Notes under the pieces: generated by a model
What the model was told of the DNA's origin: nothing
The model's input: only the letters and a program-made list of their open reading frames with translations
The model's database searches: none
Shown here: positions 57,609 to 64,000 of the stretch, piece by piece
Position numbering within the stretch: position 1 is the stretch's first letter
Layout: every line of letters begins with the position of its first letter
DNA from: Candidatus Accumulibacter contiguus
GTDB lineage: Bacteria > Pseudomonadota > Gammaproteobacteria > Burkholderiales > Rhodocyclaceae
DNA: 64,000 bases
Assembly: GCF_012940005.1 (NCBI RefSeq)
Contig: NZ_SPMX01000025.1
Span: forward strand, 1 to 64,000
Direction: 5' to 3'
Position numbers and translations under genes: made by a program

Positions 57609-59825
57609 CTATTCCTGCATGGCCATGAGCTCCTTGTCGGCGTAGCGCAGGCGCAAGGCCAAGACCTTGGCAAGCTCCTCGACCAGGGTGCACGCCAGGC
57701 GTTTGTGCTCTTCCCGGAGTACTTCGAACTGCTCGCGCTGCAGCACGAAGAGTTCGGTGTCTTCGAGCGCCGTCGCATCGTTGAGGCGGGTCATCTGCGA
57801 CAGAAATGCCATGCCGCCGAAGAAGTCGCCGCGCCCGTAGGTCAGCGAGTGGTGGCCGCCCTCTTCGACCGGGCTCGGCAGAGTGATGCGGACCGCGCCC
57901 TTGCGAATCAGGTAGAGCTCGTTGCCGGGATCGCCAAAAGAGTAGACCTTCTCGTCCTTGACCAGCGAGCGTCGTTGCAAGGCCGCTTCCAGGTCGATCA
58001 GTGTCTCCTCCTTGTGATCCTTGAAAAGTTCGAGATCCTTCAGTTCCAGTGCCGTGATCTCGGCCGTCGGTGCCATACCCTGGCCCTGGTCCAGGATCTG
58101 GTCTTCAACCCACTCGACGGCATCATCGAGTTGACCGAAGACCTTGACATGGTCGGTCATGCTGGTCAGTTCCATCTGGTCGAAGAACTCGGCAATATTC
58201 CGGCCATTTGGCAGGGTATGCGAGAGGCTGCTGAAGATCAGGAAAGCATCGCGTTCGATCAGCGAATCGCGGATCTGGCTCAGCAGATGCACTGCCGTGA
58301 CATCGACCGACTGCACGCGGCGCATATCGAGAACGATGTACTTGCGTTTGCCGAGTTCCGGTTCCAGTGCCGTGTACAACTGATCCTTGGTCCCGAAAAA
58401 GAGGCCGCCCTGCAGCTCGAGAATGACCGACTGGTAACCCTCCTTCTCGAGGATGGCCATGTCCTTGCGCAGGCGGACACGCTTCGAAAAACGGCTGCCA
58501 CCGTCCATTTTGCGACGGATCACCGTGCTGCTCAGTTGTTCGCGAATGAACAGGAACATCGCCAGCGCGACACCGACGCCGGAGGCTGCGATCAGGCTGT
58601 AACCGACCGCCACGGCGACCACCACCACGATGACGATGAAATCCATCAGGGTCCACGGCGACTCGAGCAGATGCAGGCTGTGCCGGTCGATCATGCGGAT
58701 GCCGACGACGATCAGGATGCCGGCCAGCGCGCCGACCGGAATCCAGGCGATGAATGCTCCCAGAGCCAGAAAAGCGATCAGCGACAGCACGCCTTCGACG
58801 ACCCCGGAGACGCGGGTCTGGCCACCACTCGCCAGATTGACCAGCGTCGCCCCCATCTGGCCGGCGCCTGGCATGCCACCGGCACATGCGGAAGCGACAT
58901 TGCCGAGGCCCTGCGCGATCAGCTCGCGGTTGGAATCGTGGCGACTGCGGGTCAGGGCATCGAGAACGACGGCGGTCTTCAGCGTGTCGATCGACAGCAG
59001 AACGGCGAGCGTGAAGGCCGTTCCGAGCAGACTGCCGATCTGGCTCAGCTTCAGTTCGCCGATTTCCTGCCAGCGACCGGTGATCGCCTCGAACATGCTG
59101 GACGCCGTTCCCCCAAGCGGACCGATGATCAGCTTGTTATCGGCAATGACCCACAGCGACTCATCGACCGTGGCGAGTCCGAAATAGCTCAGCACCCCGG
59201 CCAGCAGGCCGAGAATGGCCGCCGGCACAACGCGCGTGAGCATCGGTGCGGTGATCATCACGCCGGCCGTGACGGCACCGATGAGCGCGCTCTGCCACTG
59301 CCACAGTTCCGGTGAGATCAGTGCCCGCCACCACGCCGTACCGCCGGGAACACCCAGGAATTTCGGGATCTGACTGCCGATGATGATCAGGCCGACACCG
59401 GTCAGATAGCCGCTGACCACCGGAAACGGAATGTATTTGATCAGGCTGCCGATCCCCATGAAACCCAGGAGGATCTGCACCAGCCCGGACACCAGGCCAA
59501 GGGCCGTCAACATCAGCACGATCGACGGCGCGGCTACCCCGTGCTGCACGAGTTCAATCGCAAAGGCCGAGAGAACCGCTGCGGCCGGCGCGCAGGGAGC
59601 GGTAATCAGACGATTGGTACCGCCCAGCGCCGGGGCCACGAGTCCGAGAGCGGTGGCACCGAGAATCCCGGCCAGAGCGCCCAGGCCGGCATACGACGGC
59701 CCGATGGCCGCATAGATGGTCACGCCAAAAGCGATCGCCGACGGCAGGGCGACCAGCATTGCCGCAAGACCGCCCCAGAAATCGCCGACCAGCTTGTCGT
59801 TCTTGAACTTGATTGCCAGTTCCAT
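57609..59825 (-). CDS. SulP-family anion transporter with STAS and cyclic-nucleotide-binding domains
   Basis: A 738-residue membrane protein. The SulP domain (about 15-400) includes 'VALPSAIAFGVTIYAAIGPSYAGLGALAGILGATALG', 'GGTNRLITAPCAPAAAVLSAFAI' and 'AGGMPGAGQMGATLVNLASGGQTRVSG'. The STAS domain (about 460-575) has 'YIVLDMRRVQSVDVTAVHLLSQIRDSL'. The C-terminal domain (about 600-735) has the cNMP-binding fold ('VYSFGDPGNELYLIRKGAVRITL' and 'YGRGDFFGGMAFLSQMTRLNDATALEDTELFVLQRE'). The substrate could be sulfate, bicarbonate or a dicarboxylate. A strong 12-bp hairpin lies upstream at 59906-59933. Confidence 0.9.
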   Translation of the reverse strand: MELAIKFKNDKLVGDFWGGLAAMLVALPSAIAFGVTIYAAIGPSYAGLGALAGILGATALGLVAPALGGTNRLITAPCAPAAAVLSAFAIELVQHGVAAPSIVLMLTALGLVSGLVQILLGFMGIGSLIKYIPFPVVSGYLTGVGLIIIGSQIPKFLGVPGGTAWWRALISPELWQWQSALIGAVTAGVMITAPMLTRVVPAAILGLLAGVLSYFGLATVDESLWVIADNKLIIGPLGGTASSMFEAITGRWQEIGELKLSQIGSLLGTAFTLAVLLSIDTLKTAVVLDALTRSRHDSNRELIAQGLGNVASACAGGMPGAGQMGATLVNLASGGQTRVSGVVEGVLSLIAFLALGAFIAWIPVGALAGILIVVGIRMIDRHSLHLLESPWTLMDFIVIVVVVAVAVGYSLIAASGVGVALAMFLFIREQLSSTVIRRKMDGGSRFSKRVRLRKDMAILEKEGYQSVILELQGGLFFGTKDQLYTALEPELGKRKYIVLDMRRVQSVDVTAVHLLSQIRDSLIERDAFLIFSSLSHTLPNGRNIAEFFDQMELTSMTDHVKVFGQLDDAVEWVEDQILDQGQGMAPTAEITALELKDLELFKDHKEETLIDLEAALQRRSLVKDEKVYSFGDPGNELYLIRKGAVRITLPSPVEEGGHHSLTYGRGDFFGGMAFLSQMTRLNDATALEDTELFVLQREQFEVLREEHKRLACTLVEELAKVLALRLRYADKELMAMQE

Positions 59826-59905
59826 CTCAGGCTCCCTTCAATCCCTCATGAAAAATGCCGCTGCAGACCAGACGGCCCGCTTGAGCCCAAGCGACGCAAA
59901 GCAAT

Positions 59906-59933
59906 GCGGCCCAGGCTACCCAGCCTGGGCCGC
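59906..59933. other. Strong GC-rich hairpin upstream of the SulP gene
   Basis: GCGGCCCAGGCT (59906-59917) and AGCCTGGGCCGC (59922-59933) are perfect 12-base complements around a 4-base loop. There is no T run, so it is not a simple terminator; it lies about 80 bases before the SulP start and may be in its leader. Confidence 0.6.
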
Positions 59934-60013
59934 GTGCGATGTTAACACGATTGGTTCTTTTTTAGCGGAAGGTGAAAAGACCGGCTGCTGGTCGCCGGGC
60001 AAGCAGTGAACGC

Positions 60014-60049
60014 AAAACGGTCTTGCCCGAACACTATCGGGCAAGACCG
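60014..60049 (-). terminator. Terminator after the PhoU-like genes
   Basis: CGGTCTTGCCCGA (60018-60030) and TCGGGCAAGACCG (60037-60049) form a perfect 13-base stem with a 6-base loop. On the minus strand it is followed by TTTTGC, 30 bases after the last stop of the PhoU-like pair. Confidence 0.72.
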
Positions 60050-60079
60050 GCTGCGCCATTGGAAGCGGATGCAGAAGAC

Positions 60080-60796
60080 TCAGTGCGAATCCCTGCCGGC
60101 GGCAGTGGGCAGGCCAGCCATGCGGCGGGCCCGGAGTTCTCTGTCGATTCCTTCGGCCTGGTCAGCCACGCGGTCGATCTCTTCCACGAGTTGCGCCAGC
60201 GGCAGTTTCACTTCGAGGTCGATGCTGTCGTCGGCAAAGATTTTCTTGAGAATCTGCATCGAGAGACGGTCTGCCTGGTTTTCATACCAACTGACGCCAT
60301 GCTCTGCCTCGCCCGAAAACGGCTGTTCCCACCACAGCAGCGATGGGCGATAGCTCTCGACCAGCGCGTCGACCGCGGCGCAGACCTCGTCACTCAGTTC
60401 CTGCAAGTCCGGAACCAGGTACGCAGGAACGCAGCGGCGAGGGCTCGAAAAACCCGATTCGATGGCAAAACCGGTGATCTGCCGTTTCATGTCCTTGAGC
60501 AGCCGGCTCACACCGGTCAGCGGGTCGATCATTTCGGCAACCAGATCCCCCAATGCCGACTGCGGACGCACGCCGGTCTCGAGTCTCTGTTGCATGTCGT
60601 CGAGCGTGCGCAGGTGCTCCGAGATTTTTCCGGCTTGCCGCCAGCATGACCCTTCAGACCCACCTTGCAGATAAGCGTCTACCGCTTCCCTGAAGATCGC
60701 CGTAGCATCAGCTATGGCATCCAGATAGCTGTCGAGATCGCTTTCGATCGACCGCGAAATGGCGGACCTTGGTGCCGCTTGCACTTGAGTTTCCAC
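60080..60796 (-). CDS. PhoU/DUF47-like protein, second of a pair
   Basis: A 238-residue helical protein resembling the DUF47/PhoU family ('SDLDSYLDAIADATAIFREAVDAYLQGG', 'HLRTLDDMQQRLETGV', 'VPDLQELSDEVCAAVDALVESYRPSLLWWEQ', 'YENQADRLSMQILKKIFADDSIDLEVKLPLAQLVEEIDRVADQAEGIDREL'). The last segment is the second PhoU-like bundle with its E/D-xx-D motifs. DUF47 proteins normally accompany PiT phosphate transporters or act as phosphate regulators. The start is GTG 60794-60796, with AGGAGA before it. It is the same length as the preceding gene, and the two are diverged paralogues. Confidence 0.72.
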   Translation of the reverse strand: METQVQAAPRSAISRSIESDLDSYLDAIADATAIFREAVDAYLQGGSEGSCWRQAGKISEHLRTLDDMQQRLETGVRPQSALGDLVAEMIDPLTGVSRLLKDMKRQITGFAIESGFSSPRRCVPAYLVPDLQELSDEVCAAVDALVESYRPSLLWWEQPFSGEAEHGVSWYENQADRLSMQILKKIFADDSIDLEVKLPLAQLVEEIDRVADQAEGIDRELRARRMAGLPTAAGRDSH

Positions 60797-60899
60797 AATG
60801 ATTTCTCCTGCTGGAAGTAAAAAACTGGAGACTGACCCGCCTGGGGCAAGCTGCCTCTGGCTGCCAGTGCTTCTTGAAATACTGGAAATGGCTTGCATG

Positions 60900-61616
60900 T
60901 CAGCTGGCCACGAACTGTTGGGGGAAGAGGGCAAAGCCGCGGCTTCCGGCAGACAGTTGCCGGGACCAACTTTTGAGAATGACACCGGCACCAGAAAGTT
61001 CATGAGCGATTTTGTTCAGATTTTCATGCAGACCGTACGGCCAGCACGCGTGCGCTGGAGACATCCCCTGCGACGGTGCGAGGAATCGCTCCTCAGTAGC
61101 CGGTACTCCCCGCACGAGGGTTTTCCCGCTAGCCAGCGCACTCTGGCTGACGATGGCGGCGTCGGCATCGTACTCGGCTGCTGGTGAGCCATTTGCCAGC
61201 CGGGCATAGCCATTCTGCAGGCTCTCGATCGCTTTCTGGATCACCGCCAACATCTGGAAAGCGGCGGCATCCGGGGCCGACCACCCCGGATGGCAGTCGC
61301 GAGCGGCCCGGATCAGAAGCACTGCGGCCCGATCCAGAGCGTCCATCGTCGAGTGCATCTCGCCCATCCCGGCTTGCGGGAGCGAATCAACCACTGCCTG
61401 ATTTCGCCGCTGCAGTTCTTCACGACGCTGCTCCATTTCGAGCAGGCGCAGCGAATGTGCCGACTCTTTCCCCTGCAGCACCTCGGCAAGCACCCTTGCC
61501 AGATTCACCACCATCCTGGCCTGTTGGTCGATCATGACGAAGAAATCCGGCGCTTCGGCAGCACTCACGAGCGGACGGACTCTACGCACAACTTGTGAAA
61601 CGGCGATGGGGGTCAT
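60900..61616 (-). CDS. PhoU/DUF47-like protein, first of a pair
   Basis: A 238-residue helical protein, a distant paralogue of the gene downstream: 'FFVMIDQQARMVVNLARVLAEVLQGKESAHSLRLLEMEQRREELQRRNQAVVDSL', 'MHSTMDALDRAAVLLIRAARD', 'MLAVIQKAIESLQNGYARLANG' and 'LHENLNKIAHELSGAGVILKSW'. The heptad-like E/D/R pattern of helix 1 and 3 is PhoU-like, but metal motifs are degenerate. The ATG at 61616 (GTG 61625 is an alternative) has AGGTG before it. A 103-base gap separates it from the second copy. Function is inferred from the fold and the CYTH-CHAD neighbour. Confidence 0.55.
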   Translation of the reverse strand: MTPIAVSQVVRRVRPLVSAAEAPDFFVMIDQQARMVVNLARVLAEVLQGKESAHSLRLLEMEQRREELQRRNQAVVDSLPQAGMGEMHSTMDALDRAAVLLIRAARDCHPGWSAPDAAAFQMLAVIQKAIESLQNGYARLANGSPAAEYDADAAIVSQSALASGKTLVRGVPATEERFLAPSQGMSPAHACWPYGLHENLNKIAHELSGAGVILKSWSRQLSAGSRGFALFPQQFVAS

Positions 61617-62426
61617 GGCGTTCACCTGTGTTCTGCGGCAATGGCGGCTGGAGAAATGGTCATCAGTGGAATGTTGAAATGTTGATTTGCTTGCTCGGCA
61701 AGAACGATCGCGGTCGCTCTGCTCTCATAGAGTTGGATAAAGCATATATCGTACCAGCTTAAACAGAAATTTCATTCTCGCGTAAAATCAGCGCCATGCA
61801 ATCGATCGACCGGGTCTGCGCGAAACCCTTGGGGGTGCAACAAAACGCCATCAGAAACCCGCTGCCGGGCTGGCAAGACAGTCATCTCCACTTTAATTCA
61901 GATACTTGATGGAAAATGCAGGAGGCTGCCGGAGAATGCGGTGTTACACCATGACCCCAGCTAAACACCGTACCCGATACAAGATGAGCGAGCCATTCGA
62001 CACCGCAGCCATGCGGGCCGCTGAGGGCGAAGGGGGGCACCCGATGAATGATGGAAAAATCCCGTTCGTGCTGAACCGGTCGAAAGCCGATCGCTCACTG
62101 GTCACAGGTGTAACGTTCCTGCATTGCGACAGATTCCGCTGGCCGACCGTAACTGGCTGTTATGTATGGGTAATACCAATTGTCAGCAGATCGGATGGCG
62201 GCGCATCGTCCGATTTGTTGCACCCGTAAAAGTTTTAGTGGCGCCTCTGGCTGCGCGCCTAGCGACTTGATCTTTGGTGAATATTGATGGCGGCAGAGGG
62301 CTGGCATGGCTTGTGCTTGAACTGCGGTAACGGATATTCCGATCACCGTTTTCATATGCAAGTGGCTTGCTCAGTGGGAATTGGATGCTCCTGGCCAGGT
62401 CACCCCAATTCTCAGGAGCTTGTCAT
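61617..62426. other. Intergenic region before the CYTH-CHAD gene
   Basis: An 810-base divergent spacer between the PhoU-like pair (minus strand) and the CYTH-CHAD gene (plus strand). The longest open frame (61906-62229) has no homology I recognise and no good ribosome-binding site, so I do not call it. The right part has a sigma-54-like element at 62302-62317. No convincing pho box was seen. Confidence 0.55.
62302..62317 (+). promoter_or_regulatory. Sigma-54 (RpoN)-type promoter match before the CYTH-CHAD gene
   Basis: TGGCATGGCTTGTGCT matches the consensus TGGCACGNNNNTTGCW at all but two defined positions, with correct GG-N10-GC spacing. It lies 110 bases before ATG 62427. Confidence 0.5.
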
Positions 62427-63917
62427 ATGGCTATTGAAACCGAACTGAATCTCTCCCTAACGCCCGGAGTGGCCAGCAGGCTGGCCAAGCATCCGCTGCT
62501 GACCGCCGCCAAACCGATTCGCCAACGCGTCGTCAATACCTATTACGACACCGCAGACCAACGCTTGCGGCGCGAGCGGGTGATCGTTCGCCATGGCAGA
62601 CAGGGGGCGACCTCACTGTCGTCGATTCGGCGGGAGGCCCCGCCGCAGGACAGGCAGGCGGGACATGACGAGTGGGAATTGGTGGGTGCGCCCGGAGAAA
62701 TCGATTTCTCGCAGGTCAAGGACGGTACGCTGCGTCATCTGCTCGAATCCGTGCGCGCAGAACTGCGGCCGGCATTTATCGCCAGTTTCACGCGCAGCGC
62801 CTGGCTGCTGGCACCGCGCGAAGACGTACGCATCGAACTGGCACTCGATCGCGGCTGGATCGAGGCCGAAGGACGGCGCCAGGCAATCTGCGAGATCCGG
62901 CTAGAGTTGTTGTCGGGAGGTGTCGCTGACCTGTTTTCCACCGCCAGCGAACTGCAGGCCGATCTTTCCCTGCACCCGGAAGCCGCCAGCAAGCTCCTGC
63001 GTGGCTACCGGATTCTGGCAGCGGAACAATGGCCGGTGGTCAAGGCGCTTCCCATCGAGATCAACACCGGGATGTCGGCGATTGCCGCATTCCGGACGAT
63101 CGGGCTGGCCTGCCTCAAACACCTGCAGAGCAATGAGCAGGGACTGCGGGAAAGCGACAATCCCGAGTTTGTCCATCAGGCTCGCGTCGCGATCCGCCGT
63201 CTGCGTTCGGCGATTCGGGTCTGGAAGCCACTGCTCCCGCAGGACTTCGTGAGCAGCTTCGACCCGCTCTGGCAGGCTCTGGCCAGGCAACTCGGCGAAA
63301 CGCGAAACTGGGATGTGTTTCTTGCCGAGACCTTGCCATCGATCGTTGCTGCTTTCCCTCTCCCGGAAGGCGTCGCGATCGCTCGCCTGTCGAACTACGC
63401 GCAGCGTCGCTGCGCCATCAATCGCCAGGCAGCGCGCAGCGCACTCAAAACGGATGATTACTCGCGGCTGTTGCTCGAATTCACTGCCGCCATTCTGGCG
63501 CTTCCCGAGGGCGAAGCGCGCCCACTCGAAGCCTTTGTGCCGCGCTGCCTCGACAAGCGCGCCAAACAGGTCAGGCAACTCGCGGCACAGGCACTGTGCG
63601 GCGACGCGACGGCCCGCCATCGTCTGCGTGTGGCCTACAAGCGACTGCGCTACGCGATCGAATTTTTCGCGTCACTCTTCCCCGGCGAACGGCTGCGCAA
63701 CTACCACCTGTCGGCCAGCGGCCTGCAGGAAATGCTCGGCCGACTCAACGATCTGGCTGTGGCCAGCGAACTGATCCATGAAGCGCTGCCCGGTGAGCAG
63801 GGGGAGGGCATACGCTGCTGGCTCGAAGGGCAAACTGAACAGCTATTGCCCGAACTGGGCCGCCTGCTGGACGATTTTCACCAGCAGGCGGCACCGTGGA
63901 GGACGCCGGCTGCTTGA
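62427..63917 (+). CDS. CYTH-CHAD domain protein (polyphosphate-associated)
   Basis: A 496-residue protein with an N-terminal CYTH domain (about 1-200: 'IETELNLSL' start, 'VNTYYDTADQRLRRERVIVR', 'ELALDRGWIEAEGRRQAICEIRLEL') and a C-terminal CHAD domain (about 225-485) rich in Arg/His ('NPEFVHQARVAIRRLRSAIRVWK', 'HRLRVAYKRLRYAIEFFASLFP'). CYTH proteins hydrolyse or bind triphosphates, and CHAD targets polyphosphate granules; the CYTH ExExK motif is 'ETELN', with its lysine replaced. So it may bind rather than cleave. AGGAG lies 9 bases before the ATG. The neighbouring PhoU-like pair supports a phosphate-storage role. Confidence 0.9.
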   Translation: MAIETELNLSLTPGVASRLAKHPLLTAAKPIRQRVVNTYYDTADQRLRRERVIVRHGRQGATSLSSIRREAPPQDRQAGHDEWELVGAPGEIDFSQVKDGTLRHLLESVRAELRPAFIASFTRSAWLLAPREDVRIELALDRGWIEAEGRRQAICEIRLELLSGGVADLFSTASELQADLSLHPEAASKLLRGYRILAAEQWPVVKALPIEINTGMSAIAAFRTIGLACLKHLQSNEQGLRESDNPEFVHQARVAIRRLRSAIRVWKPLLPQDFVSSFDPLWQALARQLGETRNWDVFLAETLPSIVAAFPLPEGVAIARLSNYAQRRCAINRQAARSALKTDDYSRLLLEFTAAILALPEGEARPLEAFVPRCLDKRAKQVRQLAAQALCGDATARHRLRVAYKRLRYAIEFFASLFPGERLRNYHLSASGLQEMLGRLNDLAVASELIHEALPGEQGEGIRCWLEGQTEQLLPELGRLLDDFHQQAAPWRTPAA

Positions 63918-63947
63918 ATCCCGTGCAACTTTTGTGGATCGCGTCAA

Positions 63948-64000
63948 TGACTCACGAATCGCCCCTCACCTGCAAGCAGGAGAGGGGGCATCGGTTGAAG
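63948..64000. repeat. Palindromic repeat, modules C-B, cut by the window end
   Basis: 'TGACTCACGAATCGCCCCTC' (the reverse of the C module's outer part) is followed by a B-type stem, CCCCTCACCTG...CAGGAGAGGGG, running to the edge of the window. It lies about 30 bases after the CYTH-CHAD stop. Confidence 0.7.

Follow-up and report, generated by a model that had tools for sequence, protein, structure and literature searches.

In a 64,000-nucleotide stretch of the Candidatus Accumulibacter contiguus genome, an 810-base spacer separates a CYTH-CHAD gene from two divergently oriented genes, B and A, for DUF47-like proteins. The stretch, referred to as the window, covers positions 1–64000 of the 116-kb contig NZ_SPMX01000025.1 (C58) of a 5.02-Mb genome that is 98.7% complete. 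The spacer holds two copies of what appears to be a common sigma-54 promoter module, one directed at B-A and the other at CYTH-CHAD, and a third copy would serve a Pit-DUF47 phosphate transporter pair outside the window. The module is uniform in its parts, spacing and orientation, is conserved, and is located almost exclusively at genes of this cluster. The best reading, which we consider probable on the strength of the sequence comparisons below, is that the genus has a sigma-54 two-component regulon of its own, which serves bulk phosphate transport and the binding of polyphosphate.

The module consists of site 1 (GGTGTAAC), about 110 bp, site 2 (TTTTGTTRCACC), about 85 bp and a sigma-54 −24/−12 box; the inverted pair of sites was first seen as a recurring feature of intergenic regions. 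The boxes fit the −24/−12 pattern GG-N10-GC and are candidate sigma-54 promoters. An earlier note on this DNA had correctly spotted the one facing CYTH-CHAD but missed the second, which faces B (61756–61742). The parts found in the source genome, including stretches that resemble sites of integration host factor (IHF), are the following (positions without a contig name refer to the window):

61742–61756, minus strand: −24/−12 box of the B-A module, TGGTACGATATATGC (motif search, matrix scan)
61783–61791, minus strand: IHF-like stretch of the B-A module, CTGATTTTA, between site 2 and box, at the conserved TTGATTT position of the logo (sequence and logo; putative function)
61834–61841, minus strand: site 2 core of the B-A module, GTTGCACC, preceded by TTTT (motif search)
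61943–61950, minus strand: site 1 core of the B-A module, GGTGTAAC (motif search)
62107–62114, plus strand: site 1 core of the CYTH-CHAD module, GGTGTAAC (motif search)
62217–62224, plus strand: site 2 core of the CYTH-CHAD module, GTTGCACC (motif search)
62268–62274, plus strand: IHF-like stretch of the CYTH-CHAD module, TTGATCT, between site 2 and box (sequence and logo; putative function)
62302–62316, plus strand: −24/−12 box of the CYTH-CHAD module, TGGCATGGCTTGTGC (motif search, matrix scan)
C58:68006–68217: third full module, before the Pit-DUF47 pair outside the window (motif search)

Site 2 is always nearer to the gene, with the box at a set distance from it. The two sites are 108–112 bp apart in every pair listed (search window 95–118 bp). 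The distance from site 2 to the box, which was sought over the whole stretch up to the start codon, is 83–87 bp in 39 of 43 unique modules. These are what remains of 46 rows without L065-B, L081-CYTH-CHAD (box score 14) and one duplicate. The list required at least six of eight matches in site 1, and modules with a decayed site 1 appear only in a separate matrix scan. Logos drawn from the 43 modules read GGTGTAACGTTTCG, CRTTTTGTTRCACCCC and TGGCACGATTGTGCTT. IHF-like sequences occur within the site pair and again some 30 bases ahead of the box; at least eight of nine positions match in 15 of the 43 inner spacers, compared with 4.9% of simple shuffles, so these inner candidates are suggestive only. 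When matrices were built with one gene class left out, the modules of that class scored 42.5–73.3; in the control for the matrix scan, all totals from 16 shuffled 20-kb strands stayed below 8. Modules were also found outside the training loci (SulP in L105; Pit in L113, L174, L175 and L176; CYTH-CHAD in L129, L175 and L176).

The distribution of the module was examined in 61 genomes: the source genome, 27 congeners, nine from other genera of the family and 24 of the order. All genus genomes but G002 and G017 (26 of 28) carry the site pair, 54 copies in total; the reversed pattern was found four times. In 51 cases the site pair stands upstream of a cluster gene, namely 15 CYTH-CHAD, 13 B, 11 Pit, seven A2 (A2-Pit'), three SulP, one A and one DUF47 gene alone. 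Of the other three, two are remnants (G010, G026), and the third, in G006:C151, has no box and does not score as a module. The Pit gene of G002 has a module with a changed site 2, which the exact pattern overlooked. Site-pair matches outside the genus (four in three of the 33 genomes) equal the four of the reversed control and were rejected, and no module stands before the Pit gene (79%) of the sister-genus genome G030. The same genome, which belongs to another genus, has a cluster of GGTGTTACC-type repeats at G030:C34:60642–60854 that is unlike the module. A pattern of site 2 plus box, searched in 150 family genomes of 68 genera, was found in three of the four genus genomes drawn and once each in two of the 146 others (reversed control, one); those two do not score as modules and were rejected. 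Among 399 genomes of the order from 159 genera (the source and 398 others, with no congener drawn), the full pattern was found in the source genome only, at C58:61742–61950, 62107–62316 and 68006–68217.

The sites have been conserved while the spacers drifted. Between species, core identity is 0.83–1.00 and spacer identity 0.29–0.47; the A2 group has one stretch, behind the box, at 0.59. For different genes within one genome (17 pairs), the values are 0.87–0.91 for cores and 0.27–0.29 for spacers.

The genes of the cluster and the hairpin behind A were placed by checks of open reading frames (ORFs), Pfam, profile comparison, synteny and folding. The positions of A, B and CYTH-CHAD, the lengths of 238 amino acids (aa) for both A and B, and the 810-base spacer are as the earlier note gave them:

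57609–59825, minus strand: SulP-STAS-cNMP transporter, adjoining A in relatives (Pfam, synteny)
60018–60049, minus strand: terminator-like hairpin 3' of A, 13 pairs, TTTT (folding)
60080–60796, minus strand: gene A, orphan DUF47/PhoU-like protein, 238 aa, GTG start (ORF check, profile match to A2-type DUF47)
60900–61616, minus strand: gene B, orphan DUF47-like protein of a lineage other than that of A, 238 aa (ORF check, profile match to D-type DUF47)
62427–63917, plus strand: CYTH-CHAD protein, 496 aa, the cluster-specific one of three CYTH-CHAD copies in the genome (ORF check, Pfam)
C58:64092–64751, minus strand: DUF47 D1 (ORF, Pfam)
C58:64763–65809, minus strand: Pit P1 (ORF, Pfam)
C58:66099–66755, minus strand: DUF47 D2 (ORF, Pfam)
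C58:66758–67798, minus strand: Pit P2 (ORF, Pfam)
C58:68382–69812, minus strand: NtrC-type response regulator (ORF, Pfam)
C58:69813–72416, minus strand: CHASE-PAS histidine kinase (ORF, Pfam)

Two DUF47-Pit pairs (C58:64092–67798) thus lie less than 4 kb past position 64000, followed by the NtrC-type sigma-54 activator and the histidine kinase. The note had reported that no phosphate transporter is adjacent; that apparent absence arose because the window ended at 64000. Its statement that this is not the usual Pit-DUF47 arrangement is right insofar as the unit of A and B has no Pit gene, but Pit-DUF47 pairs are part of the same cluster. The proposed phosphate-storage module is in this respect better supported as a phosphate and polyphosphate locus than the note could see, because the Pit transporters belong to the cluster; it is not a transporter-free trio.

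The regulator has the Pfam domains Response_reg, Sigma54_activat and HTH_8, and its translation contains GAFTGA, which we take to be the sigma-54 interaction motif of NtrC-type regulators. It was found (E ≤ 1e-110) in 27 of the 28 genus genomes and in one of the 33 others. Among 17 full-length orthologues, residues 452–468, taken as the recognition helix, are 99.3% identical, compared with 84.3% for the receiver. The source genome also has rpoN. A 55% homologue of the regulator in G052 was set aside; from their translations, its neighbours look like genes for a cytochrome c peroxidase and for a type I secretion system rather than for phosphate functions. In the control switch that we propose, the CHASE-PAS histidine kinase would activate the neighbouring response regulator, which would bind both inverted sites and be carried to the sigma-54 RNA polymerase by IHF-like bends. 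This would turn on, all at once, bulk transport by Pit, the CYTH-CHAD protein with its predicted binding of polyphosphate, and A and B as the orphan DUF47-like proteins.

Both domains of the CYTH-CHAD protein exceed the curated Pfam cut-offs (CHAD, E 1.7e-54 and 185.7 bits against a cut-off of 25.6; CYTH, E 4.9e-7 and 30.2 bits against 23.2), and the protein is predicted to bind polyphosphate. Genus genomes have three CYTH-CHAD matches (E ≤ 1e-40) in 17 of 28 cases and two in 11; outside the genus, two were found in two of 33 genomes, one in 18 and none in 13. The higher copy number in the genus would be compatible with an enlarged polyphosphate role, but proves nothing.

A and B both appear to be DUF47-like by descent, from the partners of separate Pit types. 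By Pfam, the PhoU-like identity claimed for them is only partly visible: A reaches 23.8 bits against PF01865 (DUF47/PhoU_div), just below the gathering score of 24.4, and E ≤ 0.01 is reached by 13 of the 19 A proteins, whereas B has no match to PF01865 or any other Pfam family, and none of 16 B members reaches E ≤ 0.01. Profile comparison brings out both. A matches A2-type DUF47, the partner of one Pit type, at E 4.1e-18 over 199 columns, and B matches D-type DUF47, the partner of another, at E 1.4e-9 over 172 columns in the N-terminal part. The cross comparisons give only E 0.65 (A with D-type) and 0.14 (B with A2-type). The best of 30 column permutations each gave E 0.011 for A and 0.03 for B, and reversed profiles 0.085 and 0.38. 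The separate lineages are assigned because of these comparisons and the permutation controls; even the two true DUF47 families match each other only at E 0.0033. A single-sequence search with B found D1 at E 5.4e-4 and D2 at 0.009. PDB sequence searches (A to 2iiu/2olt at E 0.006; B to a coiled-coil design at 4e-4 and a PhoU-like protein at 0.3) were not used as evidence. The view that A and B are paralogues of each other was abandoned, since their profiles match only at E 0.086 and each matches a separate DUF47 partner. Their equal length is a coincidence, as relatives span 234–245 aa for A and 234–261 aa for B, split copies excluded.

By these comparisons, A and B descend from the DUF47 proteins of Pit-DUF47 (PhoU_div) pairs. 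Two such pairs, D1-P1 and D2-P2, in which the DUF47 gene adjoins its own Pit gene, lie in the cluster; the unit of A and B differs in having no transporter gene of its own. It is possible that A and B are soluble adaptors derived from Pit accessory proteins, which could modulate Pit or connect it with stored polyphosphate.

Orthologues of A (E < 1e-60) are present in 21 of the 28 genus genomes and B (E < 1e-25) in 17, and neither was found in the 33 others; six further genus genomes have only the A2-type relative, a DUF47 protein beside a different Pit, and G017 has neither A nor A2. The co-conservation asked for by the note is thus seen within the genus: all 17 genomes with B also have A. In the synteny set (29 loci from 27 genomes), A and B adjoin on the same strand in all 19 loci that have both, with gaps of 60–124 bases in 18 and 355 in one; CYTH-CHAD is near them in 13. 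The usual order in congeners is co-directional, histidine kinase (HK)-NtrC-Pit-DUF47-CYTH-CHAD-B-A-SulP-Usp-AlkA-AccA, interrupted in single genomes by a contig end, a loss or an insertion. D1-P1 is an extra pair relative to it; this insertion (C58:64092–65809, L005:4293–6010) has no module, and similar DUF47 genes occur elsewhere in other congeners. The head-to-head layout that the note took as the unit is a local inversion, in which CYTH-CHAD has been turned round together with its promoter. In 14 of 16 fetched loci having both, CYTH-CHAD runs in the direction of A; the exceptions are the source genome and L073, where a 51% CYTH-CHAD lies alongside.

A relative of A is encoded in 20 named loci, of which 17 bear the title Accumulibacter, two "Pseudomonadota bacterium" and one "Dechloromonas sp." One locus titled Dechloromonas sp. 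SSD3 (L129, CP059264.1, 3264–13850) shows HK-NtrC-CYTH-CHAD-B-A-SulP with the module; its identities of 72–89% (HK, NtrC, SulP) are typical within Accumulibacter, and a wrong label, a mixed assembly or a transfer would each fit. Gene B is split into two frames in the complete genome G010 (L065:8932–9638), and G004:C1 (L091:11271–12656) carries a second A-B copy with in-frame stops in A.

In the fetched loci, A is followed by SulP. Judged by folding energy, a stable hairpin (≤ −26 kcal/mol in 45 nt) lies between the two in 16 of 23 genomes or loci, which makes read-through from the B-A promoter into SulP uncertain. In the window, two long minus-strand hairpins (59906–60049) separate A from SulP, and a 246-nt stretch folds with a z of −5.15; an Rfam search of 59800–64000 gave nothing at gathering scores. 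A module precedes SulP itself in G012 and G009, which have no A and B. In G001, SulP lies on another contig and has kept its module, together with a short NtrC fragment.

Several observations weigh against the proposed regulon. Four modules have other distances from site 2 to the box (76, 79, 93 and 96 bp), the Pit gene of G007 and the extra D1-P1 pair have no module, site 1 is decayed before Pit in L077, L079, L081, L082 and L083, and in the DUF47 modules of L086 and L088 no box stands where one is usually found. The G010 and G026 remnants, whose box is ruined, stand without a CYTH-CHAD gene; both share the turned orientation of the source genome, and the G026 contig ends about 1 kb on. No exact module was found at ppk, because in the source genome the exact pattern is confined to the three places on C58. 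Only an incomplete or fragmented regulator gene was found in G003, G011, G015 and G022. At the thresholds applied, neither the regulator nor A/A2, B, P2, SulP or any site pair was found in G017, which has two CYTH-CHAD copies; since this genome (90% complete) may have lost, or not assembled, the whole cluster, its co-absences count as one event.

The modules could also be sigma-54 promoters served by another enhancer-binding protein. The neighbouring regulator is indeed tied to the sites only through adjacency and co-occurrence, but it is as genus-bound as the module, and its likely recognition helix is far better kept than its receiver; we consider another activator improbable. It is scarcely credible that the inverted sites have no regulatory role and instead mark the two ends of a small repeat or mobile element, or survive from a duplication of DNA. 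Inverted ends about 120 bp apart do resemble terminal repeats, and the NtrC fragment before the module of the relocated SulP in G001 suggests that some copies may stem from segmental duplication. However, the fixed orientation towards the gene and the box, and the near absence of site pairs away from cluster genes, do not fit such an element, and the mobile-element reading was rejected on the kept cores and drifted interiors. It is very improbable that A, B and CYTH-CHAD form a phosphate-storage module by themselves. The constant adjacency of A and B and the frequent proximity of CYTH-CHAD would suit it, but Pit-DUF47 is part of the cluster and has the same type of module, and A and B come from two DUF47 lineages; the trio as a transporter-free unit was rejected.

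The sigma-54 two-component regulon remains our preferred reading. A stronger version would make it private to Accumulibacter and essentially single-purpose, switching phosphate flow and store (Pit, CYTH-CHAD, SulP) apart from the Pho regulon. A and B, of different DUF47 lineages, would have been recruited to it as a pair with no transporter of its own, either to gate Pit between uptake and efflux or to dock it to polyphosphate. Taken as a whole, this version seems rather unlikely.

Biological phosphorus removal depends on Accumulibacter. In a 2025 study, phosphate-proton efflux through Pit is the primary source of proton motive force for anaerobic fatty-acid uptake, and pitA transcription rises at high phosphate, pst and pho regulator genes at low phosphate (PMC12604563). 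The accessible part of that study names no regulator for Pit (PMC12604563). A defined regulator, sensor and site set at three promoters of the source genome would make the question of Pit control directly testable. The common promoter design beside a sensor-regulator pair in these wastewater bacteria points to a possible dedicated control switch for phosphate storage. Literature searches for Accumulibacter with sigma-54 and phosphate transport, and with NtrC, gave no match. The novelty of the module is not certain, however, because promoter motifs in Accumulibacter have reportedly been described by Oyserman et al. in 2016.

The polyphosphate accumulator Microlunatus phosphovorus belongs to another phylum than Accumulibacter. 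Its two-component system PolS-PolR binds promoters of pit, pst and polyphosphate genes and is in this respect similar (PMC6754071). It differs in its recognition sequence, GTTCACnnnnnGTTCaC; the targets named in the accessible text are ppk and pstS, and no sigma-54 is named there (PMC6754071). Within the genus, a predicted FNR motif set stands before respiratory and other genes (165 genes or operons), and the part of that report at hand describes no module of site 1, site 2 and box (PMC6446978). Polyphosphate binding by the CHAD domains of phosins and, in Ralstonia, their location at the granules have been described (PMC6537752). The cluster protein shares the CYTH-CHAD architecture and differs in lying within a Pit cluster with a sigma-54 module. 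NtrC/DctD-type enhancer systems combine a sigma-54-domain response regulator with upstream sites and a −24/−12 box. The system described here has the same parts, including HTH_8 in the regulator, but differs in its two inverted sites about 110 bp apart, its nearly fixed 85 bp to the box and its phosphate-gene targets.

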